A stretch of 64,000 nt of DNA, from the NCBI RefSeq assembly GCF_003314435.2, contig NZ_QNVY02000002.1:248001-312000 (forward strand). Reading direction: 5' to 3'. The number at the start of each line of letters is the position of its first letter. Position 1 is the first letter of the stretch. The DNA is from Flavobacterium petrolei. GTDB lineage: Bacteria > Bacteroidota > Bacteroidia > Flavobacteriales > Flavobacteriaceae. Positions 56,078 through 63,579 of the stretch are shown here, piece after piece. Position numbers and translations under genes: made by a program. The notes beneath the pieces were generated by a model. That model did not search any database and was not told the origin of the DNA. It saw only the letters and a list, made by a program, of their open reading frames with translations.

Positions 56078-57352
56078 ATGATTCAAATCGAAAAAAAATA
56101 CAACATCGCACTCTGGTTAGACAAATTATTTATTGACGATTTTGGTTTAGAACCAGTCCCAGCCTTATATTTAAAACTTTTGACACTAATCTTGGTGCTA
56201 GCTATAATATGCTTTTTATCTTGGTATTTTACGAAAATAGTTATTGTTCGTTTTTTACATAAATTTTTATTAAAAACAGAAGTAATTTGGGATGATGTTT
56301 TCATAGAAAAAAGAGTTTTTGAAAAAATAGCTTACTTGATACCTGCTTTCATCGTTGTTTTAATTTCTCCTTCTATTTTTGCAGATTTCCCAACGTTAAC
56401 TGATTTTGTAGTACTTCTATCCAATATCTTTATAATTTTAGTACTAATTAATTTAGCTATCACCGTACTATCAGTCTTTGATGAAATTCTATCCAAGATC
56501 ATAATTTTAAAAGACAAACCTATTACCAGCTACATTCAAGTACTTAAAATTGTAGTCTATTTTATTGGAGGAATTCTGGTTTTATCTTTAGTTTTAGGAA
56601 AAAGTCCTTTCTATTTTCTAGGTGCAATGGGAGCCATGACCGCTATTTTGCTTTTAATTTTCAAAGACACCATTTTGGGGTTTGTAGCCAGTATTCAAAT
56701 GTCCGTCTATGATATGGTCCGAGTCGGAGACTGGATTTCGATGCCAAAATATGACGCGGACGGTGATGTATTGTCAATCAATTTAAATACTGTAAAAATT
56801 CAGAATTGGGATAAAACAATTACCACAATACCCACATACGCATTTATAACGGATTCTTTCAAGAACTGGCGTGGTATGAATGACTCTGGCGGAAGACGAA
56901 TAAAACGAGCGATTTATTTAAAGGTTAGCAGTTTTCAGTTTTGTGACGAAAAAATGCTATCCCAGTTCAAAAAATATAAACTAATTCAAGATTATATCAC
57001 TAAAAAAGGAGATGATGTTCAAAAATTTAATTCTAAAATAATTGATAATGAAATAGATTCTGTAAACCTTCGAAGATTTACCAATATAGGTGTTTTTAGA
57101 ATCTATGCTGAAAAATATATTACTGCCCATCCTGATATTAATAAGGACATGACTATAATGGTGCGCCAGCTAGAATCTACTTCAAAGGGACTACCATTAG
57201 AAATTTATTGCTTTAGCGCAGAAAAAGAATGGCTAAAGTATGAAAATATTATATCCGATATCTTTGATCATCTATTTACCATTACTTCGGAGTTTGAACT
57301 GGAGGTTTTTGAAGAACCCACAGGAAAAGACTTTAGAAATATTAACAGATAA
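56078..57352 (+). CDS. MscS-family mechanosensitive channel
   Basis: A 424-residue small-conductance channel protein. Hydrophobic helices occur at about 30-55, 90-105, 110-135, 150-175 and the pore-lining segment 180-205 (LGAMGAMTAILLLIFKDTIL), followed by the beta domain with VRVGDWISMP and NWDKTITTIP and a C-terminal alpha/beta domain. It opens under membrane tension to release solutes in hypo-osmotic shock. The N-terminal region is longer than minimal MscS, similar to the YbdG/YnaI-type relatives. Confidence 0.9.
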   Translation: MIQIEKKYNIALWLDKLFIDDFGLEPVPALYLKLLTLILVLAIICFLSWYFTKIVIVRFLHKFLLKTEVIWDDVFIEKRVFEKIAYLIPAFIVVLISPSIFADFPTLTDFVVLLSNIFIILVLINLAITVLSVFDEILSKIIILKDKPITSYIQVLKIVVYFIGGILVLSLVLGKSPFYFLGAMGAMTAILLLIFKDTILGFVASIQMSVYDMVRVGDWISMPKYDADGDVLSINLNTVKIQNWDKTITTIPTYAFITDSFKNWRGMNDSGGRRIKRAIYLKVSSFQFCDEKMLSQFKKYKLIQDYITKKGDDVQKFNSKIIDNEIDSVNLRRFTNIGVFRIYAEKYITAHPDINKDMTIMVRQLESTSKGLPLEIYCFSAEKEWLKYENIISDIFDHLFTITSEFELEVFEEPTGKDFRNINR

Positions 57353-57443: not shown

Positions 57444-58571
57444 ATGAAAAATAAAGAAGTTTTAATTATTGGTGGAGGTTTAGCAGGATTGACTGCGGCT
57501 ATTCATTTGTCCAAAATTGGACTTCAAGTAACGGTTATCGAAAAAAATAGTTATCCAAAACATAAAGTTTGTGGCGAATATATTTCTAATGAGGTTTTAC
57601 CGTATCTTAATTGGTTGGATTTAAAAATAAGCGATTTAAAACCTACAAATATTACAAAACTTGAGTTTTCAACAGCAAGCGGAAAAACAATTAAAAGTAA
57701 TCTACCACTTGGTGGTTTTGGAATCAGTCGTTTTACTTTAGATGAATATTTGTATAAAAAAGCTCTTGAAAACGGATGTAAAATTATTCAAGACAATGTT
57801 GAAAATATACTATTTAAAGACAATCAATTTATAGTTACTACTAATAATAGCATTTTAAAATCAGAAATAGTTATTGGCTCTTTTGGCAAACGTTCCAATA
57901 TAGACCAAAAAATGAATCGGGATTTTATTCATAAAAAATCATATTGGTTAGCGGTCAAAGCACATTATTCTGGAGATTTTCCAAATGATGTAGTTGGACT
58001 ACATAATTTCAAAGGAGGATATTGTGGTGTTTCTAAAGTAGAAAATAATAGGATTAACATCTGTTATTTAGCCGATTATAAAACTTTTAAACAGTTCAAA
58101 AATATAGAAGAATATCAGAACAGTATCGTTTCTGAAAACCCTCATTTAAGAGTAATTTTCGAAGAAAGTAGTTTGCTTTTTGAAAAACCTTTAACCATCA
58201 GCCAAATATCTTTCGAAAAAAAACAAGTAGTTGAAAATCATATTTTAATGATTGGCGATACCGCAGGATTAATTCATCCTTTGTGCGGTAATGGAATGGC
58301 AATGGCAATTCATAGTGCCAAAATTGTTTCAGAATTAGTGCAGAAATATTATACCAATGAAATCAAATCCAGAAATGAACTGGAAGAAAAATACATTTAC
58401 GAATGGAATTTAAATTTCAAAAAAAGACTTAAAACTGGCCGCTTTTTATCCAGTATTTTGCAAAAACCGAAACTTTCAGCCATATTGATGCGTATATTAA
58501 TTATATTACCATTTTTATTACCAATTATCATTAAGAAAACGCACGGAAAACCAATCATTCTAAACTCCTAA
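57444..58571 (+). CDS. FAD-dependent oxidoreductase, geranylgeranyl-reductase type (cluster gene)
   Basis: A 375-residue flavoprotein. GGGLAGLTAAIHLSKIG (residues 9-25) and VIEKN bind FAD. CGEYISNEVLPYL (about 43) and GDTAGLIHPLCGNGMAMAIHSA (about 271) match the GGR/hydroxylase branch of FAD oxidoreductases. A C-terminal hydrophobic stretch (ILIILPFLLPIIIKK) suggests membrane association, which fits a lipid substrate. It is the first gene of the type III PKS cluster, directly abutting the methyltransferase. Its role is probably hydroxylation or reduction of the cluster product. Confidence 0.85.
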   Translation: MKNKEVLIIGGGLAGLTAAIHLSKIGLQVTVIEKNSYPKHKVCGEYISNEVLPYLNWLDLKISDLKPTNITKLEFSTASGKTIKSNLPLGGFGISRFTLDEYLYKKALENGCKIIQDNVENILFKDNQFIVTTNNSILKSEIVIGSFGKRSNIDQKMNRDFIHKKSYWLAVKAHYSGDFPNDVVGLHNFKGGYCGVSKVENNRINICYLADYKTFKQFKNIEEYQNSIVSENPHLRVIFEESSLLFEKPLTISQISFEKKQVVENHILMIGDTAGLIHPLCGNGMAMAIHSAKIVSELVQKYYTNEIKSRNELEEKYIYEWNLNFKKRLKTGRFLSSILQKPKLSAILMRILIILPFLLPIIIKKTHGKPIILNS

Positions 58572-59282
58572 ATGACACTAAACACTAAATATAGAACTGA
58601 TAAACCGGAAATCATGGATGATTTTGCCATGGAAGGCGAAATTTTACGTGATGCTTTGGATAAAATAGCCAAAATCAATCAGCTTTTAGGAGGAAATCAG
58701 TTAACTTTAAAAGGAGTACAAGAACTGATTCAGGATTCTAAAAAAAGGGAAATTGTTATTGTGGACGTAGGTTGTGGCAATGGCGATATGTTGAGGACTT
58801 TAGCTGATTTCGGACTTAAAAACGATCTTAAATTCCAGTTAATAGGCATTGATGCAAACAATTTTACAATTTCGCATGCACAAAAATTATCCGATAAATA
58901 CGCTAATATTAGTTATCGTTGCGAAGATATTTTTAATGAATCATTTAATGATTTAAAGTATGATATTGTTTTATGTACTTTGACATTACATCATTTTAAA
59001 AACGATGAGATTGTACAATTATTGAAAGTTTTTTATACTAATGCAGCAATAGGAATTGTAATCAATGATTTACACCGAAGTGCGGTTGCTTATCGTTTAT
59101 TTCAAGCTTTATGTTTCGTTTTTCAATTGAATGATATGTCTCGAGAAGACGGATTAACTTCAATTTTAAGAGGTTTTAAAAAAGAAGAGTTAATCGAATT
59201 TTCTAAAAAATTAAATTTTAAAAACTATAAAATTCATTGGAAATGGGCTTTTAGATACCAATGGATAATTTCAAAAATATGA
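58572..59282 (+). CDS. SAM-dependent methyltransferase (cluster gene)
   Basis: A 236-residue class I methyltransferase. The SAM-binding motif I is IVDVGCGNGDMLRTL (about 59), followed by GIDANNFTI (motif II) and DIVLCTLTLHHFKNDEI (about 134). It starts right after the oxidoreductase stop and its own stop overlaps the PKS start (ATGA at 59279-59282), so the three are translationally coupled. A role in methylating a phenolic hydroxyl or ring carbon of the polyketide is likely. Confidence 0.87.
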   Translation: MTLNTKYRTDKPEIMDDFAMEGEILRDALDKIAKINQLLGGNQLTLKGVQELIQDSKKREIVIVDVGCGNGDMLRTLADFGLKNDLKFQLIGIDANNFTISHAQKLSDKYANISYRCEDIFNESFNDLKYDIVLCTLTLHHFKNDEIVQLLKVFYTNAAIGIVINDLHRSAVAYRLFQALCFVFQLNDMSREDGLTSILRGFKKEELIEFSKKLNFKNYKIHWKWAFRYQWIISKI

Positions 59283-60331
59283 GTGTAAAAATCAAAACCG
59301 TAACCAAACAGTTACCTAAATATTCCAGAAATACAGATGAAATTATTCCTTTTTTGGATGCTTGGCTCGTTGGGCAAGACGAGCGTTTCATTAGAAAAGT
59401 AAAGAAAATTTTTGAAGGTGCAGCAGTTGATAAACGGTATTCCATTATGGATCCAATTGAAGTGTTTACCAAAACTTCATTTGAGGAAAGAAACGATATT
59501 TATGTTCGTGAAGTGATTGATTTAGGCGAAAAAGTATTGGAAAAAGCGTTAGAAAAAGCCAGTTGGAACCCTGAAGATTTAGATTATATCATCACAGTAA
59601 GTTGCACTGGAATTATGATTCCATCATTGGATGCTTATCTTATTAACAAGTTAAAATTGCGTCAGGATATTGTACGGCTTCCCGTTACTGAAATGGGTTG
59701 TGCTGCCGGAATTTCGGGGATCATTTATGCTAAAAACTTTTTGCAGGCCAATCCTGGAAAACGTGCTGCTGTGATTGCAGTAGAAAGCCCCACGGCAACC
59801 TTTCAATTAGATGATTTCTCGATGGCAAATATAGTAAGTGCTGCAATTTTTGGCGATGGTGCTGCCTGCGTTTTACTTTCATCACATGAAGATGATGAGG
59901 GACCGGAAATTGTATCAGAGGAGATGTATCATTTCTATGATAACATCCACATGATGGGGTTTAAACTCACCAATTCGGGTTTGCAAATGGTATTGGACAT
60001 TGAAGTTCCAGAAACGATTGCTTCTCATTTTCCCGATATTATTCATCCATTTTTAGAAAAAAACAATTTAAAAATAGAAGATATTGATCATTTGATTTTT
60101 CATCCAGGAGGAAAGAAAATTGTCCAAACTGTTGAAAGTTTGTTTTCTAGTTTAGGTAAAAATATAGACGATACTAAAGAAGTTTTGCGTTTGTATGGAA
60201 ATATGTCAAGCGCAACAGTTTTATATGTTTTAGAGCGAATAATGGACAATCAGCCTAAAAAAGGAGAAAAAGGATTAATGCTGAGTTTTGGTCCGGGTTT
60301 CTCGGCGCAAAGAGTTTTATTACATTTTTAG
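59279..60331 (+). CDS. Type III polyketide synthase (chalcone/stilbene synthase superfamily)
   Basis: A type III PKS of about 350 residues. The catalytic triad is visible: Cys in EMGCAAGISG (147 in the long frame, 141 from this start), His in FHPGGKK (275) and Asn in YGNMSSATV (308), with the C-terminal loop SFGPGFSAQ. I choose ATG 59279 because it overlaps the methyltransferase stop in ATGA; an upstream ATG at 59261 is possible. These enzymes extend a CoA or ACP starter with malonyl-CoA and cyclise it to resorcinols, pyrones or related rings. Linked carrier and ketosynthase genes suggest a long acyl starter. Confidence 0.93.
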   Translation: MSVKIKTVTKQLPKYSRNTDEIIPFLDAWLVGQDERFIRKVKKIFEGAAVDKRYSIMDPIEVFTKTSFEERNDIYVREVIDLGEKVLEKALEKASWNPEDLDYIITVSCTGIMIPSLDAYLINKLKLRQDIVRLPVTEMGCAAGISGIIYAKNFLQANPGKRAAVIAVESPTATFQLDDFSMANIVSAAIFGDGAACVLLSSHEDDEGPEIVSEEMYHFYDNIHMMGFKLTNSGLQMVLDIEVPETIASHFPDIIHPFLEKNNLKIEDIDHLIFHPGGKKIVQTVESLFSSLGKNIDDTKEVLRLYGNMSSATVLYVLERIMDNQPKKGEKGLMLSFGPGFSAQRVLLHF

Positions 60332-60362
60332 CCACCTAACTCCAAATGGGAATTGAAAAAAT

Positions 60363-60836
60363 ATGACTAGCCAAGAAATTATATCAAAATTACCGTATTC
60401 TAATCCGTTTTTGTTTGTAGACGAAATTCTTCAAAGCAATGAAAATGGGGTAGAAGGAACCTATACTTTTGATGAAAATCTTGATTTTTACAAAGGACAT
60501 TTTAAAGAATATCCCGTAACTCCAGGAGTTATTTTAACGGAAGTTATGGCGCAAATTGGTTTGGTTTGTTTAGGTATTTTTTTATTGGATGATTCATTTA
60601 ATAAAAACACTTCAATCGCCTTAACATCAACAGAAATAGATTTTCTAAAACCTGTTTTTCCTAAAGAAAAAGTGACCGTAATTTCAAAAAAAGTATACTT
60701 TAGATTCGGAAAATTAAAATGTAAAGTCATTATGAAAAACGAAAAAGGAGAAGAGGTTTGTACAGGAACAATTGCCGGAATGATCCTCTCCCCAGCCCTC
60801 TCCAAAGGAGAGGGAGCCGAAATTGGATTAAAATAA
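60363..60836 (+). CDS. FabZ-like 3-hydroxyacyl-ACP dehydratase with repeat-encoded tail
   Basis: A 157-residue hotdog-fold dehydratase. The catalytic pair is His46 in GHFKEYPVTPG and Glu60 in VILTEVMAQIG, the FabA/FabZ pattern. The domain ends near residue 140 (TGTIAGM). Residues 141-157 (ILSPALSKGEGAEIGLK) are encoded by a dispersed C/G-rich repeat (60785-60816). It starts 31 nt after the PKS gene. It would remove water in a dedicated acyl-chain cycle with the neighbouring ketosynthase and carrier; no ketoreductase is in the cluster, so that step may come from primary fatty acid synthesis. Confidence 0.88.
   Translation: MTSQEIISKLPYSNPFLFVDEILQSNENGVEGTYTFDENLDFYKGHFKEYPVTPGVILTEVMAQIGLVCLGIFLLDDSFNKNTSIALTSTEIDFLKPVFPKEKVTVISKKVYFRFGKLKCKVIMKNEKGEEVCTGTIAGMILSPALSKGEGAEIGLK
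60785..60816 (+). repeat. Dispersed C/G-rich repeat, copy 3, inside a coding region
   Basis: CCTCTCCCCAGCCCTCTCC, then a CAAAGGAGAGGGAG arm, matching the blocks at 37824 and 49407. It lies in frame at the end of the dehydratase gene and encodes most of its last 16 residues. Confidence 0.85.
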
Positions 60837-60869
60837 TCTGTCGAAAATGTCATTGAAATTAAATTTTAT

Positions 60870-62141
60870 ATGAATAAAAGAGTAGTTATAACGGGTCTTG
60901 GTGTTGTTGCTCCGAATGGAGTAGGACTTGATGCGTTTACACATGCCATCAAAAATGGAATTTCGGGGATTAAGCACGACGCTGAGTTGGAACGATTGCA
61001 GTTTTCATGTCAAATAGCTGGAAAACCAGCCATTTCTACTGAATTAGCTTTAAAGTATTTTTCTGAGTTAGAGTTAAGAAACTTTAATTCTACGGGGATT
61101 TTATACGGTGTAATTGCTGGAATTGACGCTTGGAAAGATGCAGGATTATCTTTGGAAATAAATGAAGAACCGGATTGGGATAGCGGAACTATTTTTGGTA
61201 CAGGAACATCAGGAATTGATAAATTTCGGGAAAGCATTTATAAAATAGATGATTTTCAAACGAGAAGATTGGGCAGTACTGCCGTGGCTCAAACCATGAA
61301 TAGTGGCGTGAGTGCTTATCTGGGAGGGAAATTAGGACTAGGAAATCAAGTATCTACTAATTCTTCGGCTTGTACAACAGGAACGGAGAGTATTTTGATG
61401 GCGTATGAAAGGATAAAATCCGGTCTGGCCAAACGCATTTTGGCAGGAAGTACAAGCGATTCAGGTCCTTATATTTGGGGTGGCTTTGATGCGATGAAAG
61501 TCTGTACTTTTAAACATAATGAAAATCCGGAACAAGGCTCAAGACCAATGTCAGCAAGTGCTTCAGGATTTGTTCCTGGAAGTGGAGCAGGAGCTTTAAT
61601 TTTGGAAGATTTAGAAAGCGCATTGAATAGAGGTGCTACAATTTATGCTGAAGTTTTAGGTGGAAATGTAAATTCCGGCGGACAACGCGGTTTAGGAACG
61701 ATGACGGCGCCAAATCCAATTGCTGTACAGAAATGTATTCAAAATGCTTTGGCAAATGCTGGAATTTCAGCCAATGAAATTGACGCAATCAACGGACATT
61801 TGACAGCCACTTCCAAGGACAGTTTGGAAATTCAGAATTGGAGCGAAGCTTTGGACAGAAAAGGAAAAGATTCCCCATACATAAACTCTTTGAAATCAAT
61901 GGTAGGTCATTGTTTGTCCGGAGCGGGAAGCATAGAAAGTGTGGCTTCGGTGCTGCAATTGCATCACGGATTTGTTTTTCCGAATATCAATTGTGCCGAT
62001 TTACATCCTGAAATTACAGCAATAATTGATGAATCGAGAATACCACAACAACTGATTGAAAAGGAATTGAATATAATTGCAAAGGCCAGTTTTGGTTTTG
62101 GAGATGTGAATGGATGTGTGATTTTTAAGAAATACATTTAA
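60870..62141 (+). CDS. Beta-ketoacyl-ACP synthase (KAS II-like, cluster gene)
   Basis: A 423-residue ketosynthase of FabF type. The Cys-His-His triad is seen at Cys168 (NSSACTTGTE), His310 (NGHLTATSKD) and His347 (KSMVGHCLSGAGSIE). The N-terminus has RVVITGLGVVAPNG. The Cys context NSSACTTG and the GHLTATS loop deviate from the usual ACATG and HGTST, which suggests a specialised family rather than primary FabF. With the ACP, dehydratase and type III PKS around it, it probably elongates the dedicated acyl starter. Confidence 0.92.
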   Translation: MNKRVVITGLGVVAPNGVGLDAFTHAIKNGISGIKHDAELERLQFSCQIAGKPAISTELALKYFSELELRNFNSTGILYGVIAGIDAWKDAGLSLEINEEPDWDSGTIFGTGTSGIDKFRESIYKIDDFQTRRLGSTAVAQTMNSGVSAYLGGKLGLGNQVSTNSSACTTGTESILMAYERIKSGLAKRILAGSTSDSGPYIWGGFDAMKVCTFKHNENPEQGSRPMSASASGFVPGSGAGALILEDLESALNRGATIYAEVLGGNVNSGGQRGLGTMTAPNPIAVQKCIQNALANAGISANEIDAINGHLTATSKDSLEIQNWSEALDRKGKDSPYINSLKSMVGHCLSGAGSIESVASVLQLHHGFVFPNINCADLHPEITAIIDESRIPQQLIEKELNIIAKASFGFGDVNGCVIFKKYI

Positions 62142-62196
62142 TCAAAAATTTATAACTAATCTCGAATTGAAAAACATTAACAAAAAGTAAAAAATT

Positions 62197-62457
62197 ATGA
62201 ATAAAGAACAAACAATTGAAGAATTAAAGAACATAGTAAAGCCGTATATTCAAAACCAAGAAGCTTTTGATGGCCTTACAGAAGATACTGATTTTATAAA
62301 TGATTTGAAAATCAATTCTGCTAATTTAGTAGATGTGATTTTAGATATCGAAGAGAAATATGACATTGTAATTGATAATGAGGCTATGGAACGCATGATT
62401 AATGTAAAAGCAGCAATGGAAATTATCGAGAATAAATTATCGGAGAAAAATTCGTGA
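62197..62457 (+). CDS. Acyl carrier protein (cluster gene)
   Basis: An 86-residue acidic four-helix carrier. The phosphopantetheine-bearing serine is Ser41 in LKINSANLVDVILDIEEKYD; the usual D-S-L is N-S-A here. DTDFINDL before it and the acidic helix II fit the ACP fold. It lies between the ketosynthase and a phosphopantetheinyl transferase gene, 25 nt before the latter, which supports a dedicated carrier for the polyketide or its acyl starter. Confidence 0.9.
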   Translation: MNKEQTIEELKNIVKPYIQNQEAFDGLTEDTDFINDLKINSANLVDVILDIEEKYDIVIDNEAMERMINVKAAMEIIENKLSEKNS

Positions 62458-62482
62458 ATTAGCAGTAAAAAGTCAGTAAAAA

Positions 62483-62974
62483 ATGATTGGAAACGACATA
62501 GTAGATTTGGCTTTAGCTAAAAAAGAAAGTAACTGGCAACGCAACCGATTTTTAGATAAAATATTTACTAAAAACGAGCAACAAATGATTTTGAATGATG
62601 CGAACCCAGAAATCATGGTTTGGAATTTATGGTCCCGAAAGGAAGCAGCTTATAAAATCTACAATCGTGAAACTGGTATTCGAGGTTTTTTTCCTTTACA
62701 ACTGGACTGTTCTTTCGAAAACGCAACTTTGGGAACCGTTTCCATAAAAAAGAAAATATATTTCACTCAAAGTAAAATTGAAAACGATTCAATCTATACA
62801 ATTGCCGTTGCAGAAAAAAAACATTTCGACAAGATTGAAAATATTAGTTCTTCCGATGAAATCTATAAAAATAACGGAATACCTTTTATAATTGATTCTA
62901 CTTCAAAAATAAAAAAACCAGTTTCCATAACTCATCACGGAAGATTTTGGAAAGGAATAACGCTGATGTATTAA
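62483..62974 (+). CDS. 4'-phosphopantetheinyl transferase superfamily protein (cluster gene)
   Basis: A 163-residue AcpS/Sfp-superfamily transferase. GNDIVDL (Asp5 and Asp8, metal binding) and the signature W-S-R-K-E-A-A-Y-K (residues 50-58) are intact. It transfers the phosphopantetheine arm from CoA to carrier proteins. Its place directly after the ACP gene suggests that it activates that carrier, whose modified D-S-L motif may not suit the housekeeping enzyme. It is the last gene of the cluster and faces the exonuclease-like gene. Confidence 0.9.
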   Translation: MIGNDIVDLALAKKESNWQRNRFLDKIFTKNEQQMILNDANPEIMVWNLWSRKEAAYKIYNRETGIRGFFPLQLDCSFENATLGTVSIKKKIYFTQSKIENDSIYTIAVAEKKHFDKIENISSSDEIYKNNGIPFIIDSTSKIKKPVSITHHGRFWKGITLMY

Positions 62975-62982
62975 AGAAAATA

Positions 62983-63579
62983 TTACTTTATACCCAATCT
63001 GGATTTCAATTTCAAAAACAATAAAGCCGTTTTATAAGCATCTTCAGCTGAAGAATTTCGGTCACTTTTAGGAATATTATAAACTGCACAAAGTTCATCT
63101 AGTGAAAATTGTTTGTCATTAATATCATTAAGTTTCCGATGCATAACATCAACATCCAGAGCTTCGTTTTTCAAACGACCGCAATCTAATCGTTCCAGGG
63201 CTGCATTGATCATTTCAACATCAAAATCTATATGGTGTCCTACTAAAATAGAGTTTCCGATAAATTCAACAAAGGATTTTATAGCATCAGGCTCCCCCAA
63301 TTTTTTCATTTTACTTTCTACTAAAAATTCATTAGAAAGACCGTTATCATGAAAGAATTTATATTGTAATAAAACTGCTTCAAAACTATCACCAATAGCA
63401 ATACTATCATTAGTAACAGCAAATGATCCAATAGACATAATGACATCTTTATCAGGATTTAATCCCGAAGTTTCAGTGGAGAAAACAACAAATCGAGTGG
63501 ATTTTTTATCAAATTTAGAAACATAGGTTTTCCAAAATTCAGGATATTCTTTGTTAATATTTTTTAGCCAGTCTAACAT
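62983..63579 (-). CDS. DnaQ-like 3'-5' exonuclease-fold protein with altered catalytic site
   Basis: A 198-residue DEDDh-type exonuclease fold. Exo I is normally D-T-E-T-x-G; here it is S-T-E-T-S-G (residues 34-39), so the first catalytic Asp is Ser. Exo II HHIDFD (115-120) keeps its Asp. Exo III is normally H-x4-D; here it is N-x4-D (175-180, RNSSAEDA), so His is Asn. Two of five catalytic residues are lost, and the nuclease may be inactive or altered. It follows a DUF294-type nucleotidyltransferase gene by 2 nt, a pairing seen elsewhere near acs. Confidence 0.82.
   Translation of the reverse strand: MLDWLKNINKEYPEFWKTYVSKFDKKSTRFVVFSTETSGLNPDKDVIMSIGSFAVTNDSIAIGDSFEAVLLQYKFFHDNGLSNEFLVESKMKKLGEPDAIKSFVEFIGNSILVGHHIDFDVEMINAALERLDCGRLKNEALDVDVMHRKLNDINDKQFSLDELCAVYNIPKSDRNSSAEDAYKTALLFLKLKSRLGIK

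Follow-up and report, generated by a model that had tools for sequence, protein, structure and literature searches.

A seven-gene type III polyketide synthase cluster of Flavobacterium with its own acyl carrier module

We analysed a stretch of 64,000 nucleotides from Flavobacterium petrolei (contig NZ_QNVY02000002.1, positions 248,001 to 312,000 of the forward strand; hereafter the window), which carries seven genes around a type III polyketide synthase (T3PKS) at positions 57444-62974. Conservation across relatives supports these genes as one co-inherited unit, and all seven are under purifying selection. With moderate confidence, we propose that dedicated, discrete fatty-acid synthase (FAS) proteins encoded in the cluster feed the T3PKS, yielding a phenolic-lipid or pyrone-lipid that is then methylated and oxidised. 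A sequence-only reading of the window had predicted a cluster of this kind, and all seven open reading frames lie where it placed them, on the + strand:

57444..58571, + strand: oxidoreductase dependent on flavin adenine dinucleotide (FAD), PHBH/halogenase-type fold, geranylgeranyl-reductase/UbiH-like family (FAD-binding families of Pfam above cut-off, NCBIfam match below)
58572..59282, + strand: class I S-adenosylmethionine methyltransferase (MT), PRK06202-like (Methyltransf_25 in Pfam; PRK06202 at 131 bits, below its cut-off of 243)
59279..60331, + strand: type III polyketide synthase (Chal_sti_synt N and C; triad C141, H275, N308)
60363..60836, + strand: FabZ-like hotdog dehydratase (DH) (FabA-like Pfam match; His46, Glu60)
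60870..62141, + strand: FabF-like ketosynthase (KS) (ketoacyl-synt N and C; Cys168-His310-His347 intact)
62197..62457, + strand: acyl carrier protein (ACP) (NCBIfam ACP models below cut-off; phosphopantetheine Ser41)
62483..62974, + strand: AcpS-type 4'-phosphopantetheinyl transferase (PPTase) (PF01648, ACPS, above cut-off; motif residues kept)

Six of the seven proteins have Pfam matches above the curated cut-offs, among them the T3PKS, whose N and C domains score 77.5 and 71.1 bits against a cut-off of 27. The exception is the ACP, which has no Pfam match and is matched by NCBIfam ACP models with an E-value of 1.2e-10. The genes are closely packed, with gaps of 0 nucleotides between the FAD and MT genes, 31 between T3PKS and DH, 33 between DH and KS, 55 between KS and ACP, and 25 between ACP and PPTase. 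The MT and T3PKS genes share the ATGA overlap that had been predicted, at 59279-59282. A longer T3PKS frame starting at 59261 meets a stop within its first six residues in 3 of 20 strong matches from the genus, whereas none of 74 genus matches has a stop in the frame from 59279; because the stops hit only the longer reading, the start is better placed at 59279.

The cluster is widely conserved in the genus. We kept as loci the best 80 of 467 stretches encoding a relative, and 76 of them have every gene in the order FAD-MT-T3PKS-DH-KS-ACP-PPTase; the other four (L046, L074, L081, L100) are cut by contig ends. The closest named locus is that of Flavobacterium sinopsychrotolerans, with a T3PKS of 99% identity (the search may omit records of the window genome itself). 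The nearest named loci all belong to Flavobacterium, in agreement with the phylum Bacteroidota named in the sequence-only reading; F. hydatis DSM 2063 and F. aquatile LMG 4008 are among the carriers. Among 150 Flavobacterium genomes, 74 carry both T3PKS and KS, together on one contig, and the remaining 76 gave no match to either at E <= 1e-60 (the two sets were compared by eye). Such agreement goes well past what chance would give. The conserved gene order, whose absence would have refuted the sequence-only reading, is borne out, as is its tie between the carrier module and the T3PKS. Across a sample of 296 Bacteroidota genomes, T3PKS (68-100% identity) and KS (62-100%) are likewise found in the same 25. 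A further 103 genomes of this sample hold only a T3PKS of at most 38% identity (E <= 1e-30), and four more hold a KS of 49-57% identity (E <= 1e-60) without a close T3PKS.

The catalytic residues expected of such a unit are intact. All 93 aligned T3PKS sequences, that of the window among them, keep the triad, so the one named in the sequence-only reading holds; the KS cysteine is kept in 92 of 92 and both histidines in 91 of 92 (the exception, L100, is cut by its contig end). The ACP serine is kept in 90/90 sequences, the DH histidine and glutamate in 93/93 and the PPTase motif residues in 87/87. When the window was compared with seven close loci of the 80, dN/dS lay between 0.01 and 0.25 for every cluster gene, and the T3PKS was the steadiest (0.02-0.04). 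T3PKS and KS distances between pairs of loci rise together, with r 0.89 over 85 loci and 0.60 over 76 Flavobacterium loci; the rows are related, so these values do not amount to a test.

The two tailoring enzymes have counterparts well beyond the phylum. The MT is matched in 34 plasmid records; nine of these were fetched, and five (from Sphingobium, Psychrobacter, Falsirhodobacter, Deinococcus and Microvirga) were compared protein by protein. All nine loci hold a T3PKS and a FAD/NAD-type oxidoreductase at the same place as the MT, forming a T3PKS-MT-FAD trio, although the Deinococcus annotation calls its T3PKS a KAS III-type protein. In each of the five, the trio MT is matched by that of the window (25-30% identity, E 8.5e-34 to 2.7e-19), and the FAD enzyme likewise (E 6.5e-29 to 1.1e-5); the GGYCG motif of the latter is common to one of the five FAD proteins, that of Falsirhodobacter. 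Judged by these alignments, the window MT and FAD enzyme are kin of the trio enzymes carried on plasmids of other phyla. The likeness to the srs genes named in the sequence-only reading stands for the kinds of MT and FAD enzyme, but the T3PKS falls outside the trio clade of the tree described below.

WxWxIP is a motif of halogenases. The AlphaFold model of the FAD enzyme (pLDDT 86.6) adopts the PHBH/halogenase fold, and in the 50 entries listed as fold matches (Z 35.4 to 31.6) halogenases lead with aromatic hydroxylases close behind, a geranylgeranyl-reductase-like protein appearing at Z 31.6. We rejected a FADH2-dependent halogenase for this enzyme, since WxWxIP is present in 0 of 91 sequences even though halogenases top the list. 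A role in aromatic hydroxylation or oxidation appears likelier. In 13 of 79 loci (L039, L043, L049, L051, L052, L057, L067, L076, L080, L084, L089, L105, L109) identity to the window falls to 55-64% for the FAD gene, against 88-96% for the T3PKS; the divergence is clearest in L039, L043, L051 and L052, where the MT is at 80-84%. There may be two FAD lineages, or the gene may have been replaced inside the cluster.

The T3PKS itself has a different affinity. We built a midpoint-rooted tree of 41 rows, with trio rows from eight of the nine fetched loci and with HidC, SrsA and ArsB absent, in which the window clade (18 rows), a group linked to ICMT-type methyltransferases (12 rows) and the trio (8 rows) form three separate groups with bootstrap values of 99-100. 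The window clade has a support of 100/100 and lies on the same side as Pks11, CylI and the ICMT-linked group (100/99), apart from the trio; the long branches of Pks18, CylI, Pks11 and two trio rows were flagged as unsure. On this tree, the T3PKS forms its own clade, nearer to Pks11, CylI and the ICMT-linked enzymes than to the trio. Pks11 of Mycobacterium tuberculosis is also the nearest solved enzyme by sequence (E 9.3e-53) and by fold (Z 34.9, root-mean-square deviation 3.4 over 329 residues, about 29-30% identity), with CylI second at Z 33.9; the T3PKS model has a modest pLDDT of 72.4, and its pocket was not interpreted. Neither ArsB nor ArsC is among the solved and sequence matches listed, and the residues that distinguish them, W281 of ArsB and G284 of ArsC, could not be placed in the window enzyme. 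An ICMT-type methyltransferase adjoins the T3PKS in all eight distant Bacteroidota loci viewed (by eye) and is annotated beside the T3PKS at four of the five plasmid loci retrieved through their T3PKS, the fifth having no annotation; Pfam finds none among the seven cluster genes.

The carrier module appears to have lost a component in most of the genus. The KS matches FabF at 273.8 bits and PRK07103 at 182.6, and it is distinct from the other ketosynthases of its own genome, the nearest of which is 32% identical; to this extent, and nothing beyond it, the earlier impression that KS and ACP look specialised holds. PF01648 matches two proteins in the window genome, the cluster PPTase and one other. 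The seven genes were correctly foreseen, but an eighth gene of kin clusters was not: a short-chain dehydrogenase/reductase (SDR) that stands between T3PKS and DH in eight of the 12 loci taken from other genera. Its best NCBIfam match is FabL at 151 bits (below the cut-off of 328), with FabG at 119, and its best solved match is also FabL. The spacing YX6K marks FabL and YX3K marks FabG; all 11 aligned SDRs, two of them from modules without a T3PKS, have YX6K. Within the 80 Flavobacterium loci the gene is found only in L048 (Flavobacterium sp. GT3R68), and at E <= 1e-40 it occurs in 2 of 150 genus genomes, both times at the T3PKS cluster. A relocated copy in the window genome was considered and rejected, with the top match at 30% identity; as the best matches reach only 24-37%, we take the gene as lost there rather than moved. 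Mapped onto a tree of 32 T3PKS from the clade, the SDR trait requires at least four changes, three of them forced by well-supported branches. From these comparisons, the ancestral module was probably KS-DH-ER-ACP-PPTase, with ER the SDR as a FabL-type enoyl reductase and the host supplying the ketoreductase. The count of changes is also compatible with a history in which the SDR may have been gained in some lineages instead of lost. In L151 and L152 (genomes G138 and G195, of a genus from another family of the same class), we observed an SDR-less cluster whose T3PKS is placed beside Flavobacterium in the 41-row tree, which suggests horizontal transfer.

Related modules also occur with other partners. 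The four phylum genomes with a distant KS carry DH-KS-ACP without a T3PKS, together with the SDR in two and a PPTase-like gene in one. At L171 (8775-15109, in the locus's own numbering, as for the positions that follow), SDR-DH-KS-ACP-PPTase without T3PKS stands back to back with a DarA-like gene and DarB of a dialkylresorcinol locus; DarB matches NF053539 at 635 bits, and the DarA-like gene was recognised by eye with no library match. The modules at L172 (9596-14745), L173 (7824-12188) and L174 (8605-12855) are DH-KS-ACP beside GNAT-like and family 2 glycosyltransferase genes, neighbours that were tested against libraries in L172 and identified by eye in L173 and L174. L172 also has the SDR and, about 4 kb off, a BioF/serine palmitoyltransferase-like gene. 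The modules of L172-L174 possibly make a glycosylated acyl lipid of a new type. By analogy, the modules without a T3PKS would fit a portable supply of acyl-ACP for a partner enzyme, and the direction from module to T3PKS is favoured because they adjoin acyl-using genes. The dedicated acyl-ACP starter of the sequence-only reading gains from these loci, one beside DarB and three beside GNAT and glycosyltransferase genes, while the handover from ACP to T3PKS is something that we infer.

In the pathway that we propose, the AcpS-type PPTase would load the dedicated ACP, on which KS and DH would build or lengthen an acyl chain. Ketoreduction would fall to the host FabG, and enoyl reduction to the FabL-like SDR where it is kept and to a host enzyme in Flavobacterium. 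The T3PKS may then take the acyl group from the ACP, add malonyl-CoA units and cyclise the chain to an alkylresorcinol or an alkylpyrone. The MT would methylate the ring and the FAD enzyme hydroxylate or oxidise it, in whichever order, and the product might be an alkyl-(methoxy)hydroquinone- or quinone-like lipid, probably kept in the envelope. The kinship of the MT and FAD enzyme, along with the dedicated ACP and PPTase, fits a specialised lipid without proving it. We also put forward, more tentatively, a fuller scenario in which a discrete type II module, equipped with a dedicated ACP and PPTase and, in its ancestral form, with an enoyl reductase of the FabL type, hands acyl-ACP straight to a T3PKS of a distinct clade. 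The product would be an envelope quinone or phenolic lipid shared by Flavobacteriaceae and a few related groups, and the absence of the reductase from most Flavobacterium, by loss, would leave an unsaturated chain or pass the step to a housekeeping enzyme.

Several observations weigh against this pathway. The T3PKS lies outside the T3PKS-MT-FAD trio clade (in the 41-row tree with its flagged long branches), and a resorcinol product is not secured, because the nearest solved enzyme, Pks11, is an alkylpyrone synthase. No ketoreductase is among the seven genes, the SDR, which 4 of 12 loci of other genera and 79 of the 80 Flavobacterium loci lack, is dispensable, and no PPTase was found in 3 of the 12 other-genus loci. 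The open-access literature searched yielded neither an identified product nor a report of the gene order, in keeping with the statement of the sequence-only reading that no characterised product was known. Finally, the T3PKS may work on ordinary acyl-CoA, with the module acting at a different step. An acyl-CoA-fed T3PKS making an alkylpyrone or alkylresorcinol, with KS, DH, ACP and PPTase shifting the chain length or branching of fatty acids in general and no direct handover, would agree with the existence of related modules lacking a T3PKS and with the description of CoA thioesters as general type III PKS substrates (PMC6274091; articles are cited throughout from excerpts). We regard it as unlikely, given that KS and T3PKS were never found apart in the 150 genus genomes (E <= 1e-60) and that a general effect would need no dedicated ACP and PPTase.

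The direction could also be the reverse, with the T3PKS making a DpgA-like small aromatic acid that primes KS and ACP for an aryl-polyene-like chain, later methylated and oxidised. DpgA is indeed the best NCBIfam match of the T3PKS (180.6 bits, below the cut-off of 425), double bonds could persist where KS and DH work without an enoyl reductase, as they do in the window, and an antiSMASH label 'T3pks-arylpolyene' appears for Aequorivita in the excerpts of PMC6139392, where identity with the window locus is not shown. However, Pfam and NCBIfam identify none of the seven genes as an aryl-CoA ligase or an acyltransferase, the KS is nearer to FabF than to PRK07103 by the scores above, related modules adjoin acyl-using enzymes, and the enoyl-reductase-like gene in 8 of 12 other-genus loci speaks against a polyene, so we find this direction rather improbable. 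A polyene made by KS and DH alone is likewise weakened by the FabL-like SDR with YX6K (11/11) in other genera. Starter genes of aryl polyenes or flexirubins (an ammonia-lyase or chorismate enzyme, a CoA ligase) and DarA or DarB are not among the seven genes. That the locus is two adjacent but functionally separate operons would agree with the modules that lack a T3PKS; strict co-occurrence, fixed order, short gaps and the correlated T3PKS and KS distances make this very hard to credit. It is just as difficult to believe that the FAD protein is a halogenase giving a chlorinated or brominated product: PltA, ChlB4 and Mpy16 lead its fold matches (Z 35.4, 35.0 and 34.6), but 3-hydroxybenzoate 6-hydroxylase is close at Z 34.2 and the halogenase motif is missing throughout.

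The proposed transfer from carrier to T3PKS has parallels in characterised systems. The arsABCD operon of Azotobacter vinelandii, like the window, unites a dedicated FAS, a PPTase and T3PKS enzymes, ArsB and ArsC (PMC4824345, PMC6274091); there ArsA is a type I FAS and ArsD the PPTase, whereas the window has discrete KS, DH and ACP genes, joined in kin clusters by a FabL-like enoyl reductase, together with MT and FAD genes. By gene content and order, the set of FAS, PPTase and T3PKS is present in the window without a ketoreductase, and a type I multidomain FAS is not. As described in PMC6274091, the ACP domain of ArsA passes fatty acyl groups to ArsB and ArsC, W281 of ArsB and G284 of ArsC act as a cyclisation switch, and GCS of Streptomyces coelicolor uses acyl-ACP. 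In the cyl/paracyclophane pathway (CylB as ACP, a type I PKS, and CylI), CylI, which is near the window T3PKS by fold, receives a carrier-bound chain (PMC8086630); elongation is by the type I PKS, which the window lacks. The hidABC and planctomycetal operons share with the window an MT, a FAD enzyme or oxidoreductase and a T3PKS (PMC10896814, PMC8086630), a likeness drawn from their descriptions and not from sequence. The excerpts of these two articles describe no carrier module for them, and the window order is FAD-MT-T3PKS. For HidC, a C14 acyl-ACP has been proposed as the starter (PMC8086630). In planctomycetes, 58 of 96 T3PKS genes are accompanied by an oxidoreductase and a methyltransferase, several of the enzymes gave alkylresorcinols on expression, and methylated forms arose with the MT and FAD enzyme of G. 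maris (PMC10896814).

Adding a carrier module to the trio is not unique to the window. Plasmid pKN1 of Sphingobium yanoikuyae (L183, 2471-6790) and pLA3 of Novosphingobium US6-1 (L187, 695-5678) also hold ACP, KS, T3PKS, FAD and MT genes together, yet no DH, enoyl reductase or PPTase is annotated in the stretch viewed. The Sphingobium KS is 26% identical to that of the window, and both T3PKS fall in the trio clade, so that on sequence these sphingomonad loci look like a separate recruitment. We know of no characterisation of either.

In a survey of Flavobacteriaceae, T3PKS was the second commonest class of biosynthetic gene cluster, at 9% of the clusters (PMC7440613), and the articles searched gave no product for this class. 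Such clusters were thus already known in the family as antiSMASH classes, and we found the seven-gene order and its product unreported in the open-access literature searched. The excerpts of PMC6498172, PMC12376047, PMC9860996, PMC7477175, PMC6139392, PMC8307928, PMC11225308, PMC10752948, PMC5916927 and PMC3992019 name no product for the locus. If the fuller scenario is true, the cluster would stand as the type II equivalent of the Azotobacter system, in which a type I FAS feeds a type III PKS. A real handover would extend acyl-ACP priming of type III PKS to discrete FAS proteins and would make it probable that many Flavobacterium hold a new envelope lipid or quinone. The locus offers a compact, testable unit in which T3PKS and carrier module are strictly bound to each other, and nature supplies variants that have or lack the enoyl reductase.

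Two genes flank the cluster:

56078-57352: MscS-like channel gene, upstream of the FAD gene
62983-63579, opposite strand: exonuclease-like gene, downstream of the PPTase gene (named by reading of the sequence)

Promoter-like sites (34, where shuffled sequence gave 25.7 on average, sd 5.9) and terminator-like sites (8, where it gave 2.9, sd 2.1) mark no clear operon boundary, and none of the eight terminator-like sites lies between the PPTase gene and the next. A near-palindromic repeat at 60792-60814 falls inside the last DH codons; its 19-base core has three exact and four one-mismatch copies in the genome, while the reversed pattern has none. It seems that a repeat element was inserted here and that the end of the DH frame runs through it.

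YceI, Lipocalin_4 and DUF2147 have lipid-binder-like folds. We observed small genes of these types adjoining T3PKS genes in several lineages: upstream of the FAD gene in L142, L145 (a YceI gene, directly upstream) and L146, upstream in L147-L150, and at L178 3349-3693 and L187 4335-4769. The YceI and lipocalin neighbours were tested against libraries in one locus each, and DUF2147 is by annotation. We count the YceI gene of L145 in favour of the proposed lipid pathway. Two of the 80 loci, L081 and L100, are filed under metagenome-assembled genomes of Klebsiella pneumoniae and Candidatus Nitrotoga; as their T3PKS are 90 and 87% identical to that of the window and the neighbours stand in the same order, we read them as binning errors, probably of Flavobacterium contigs.

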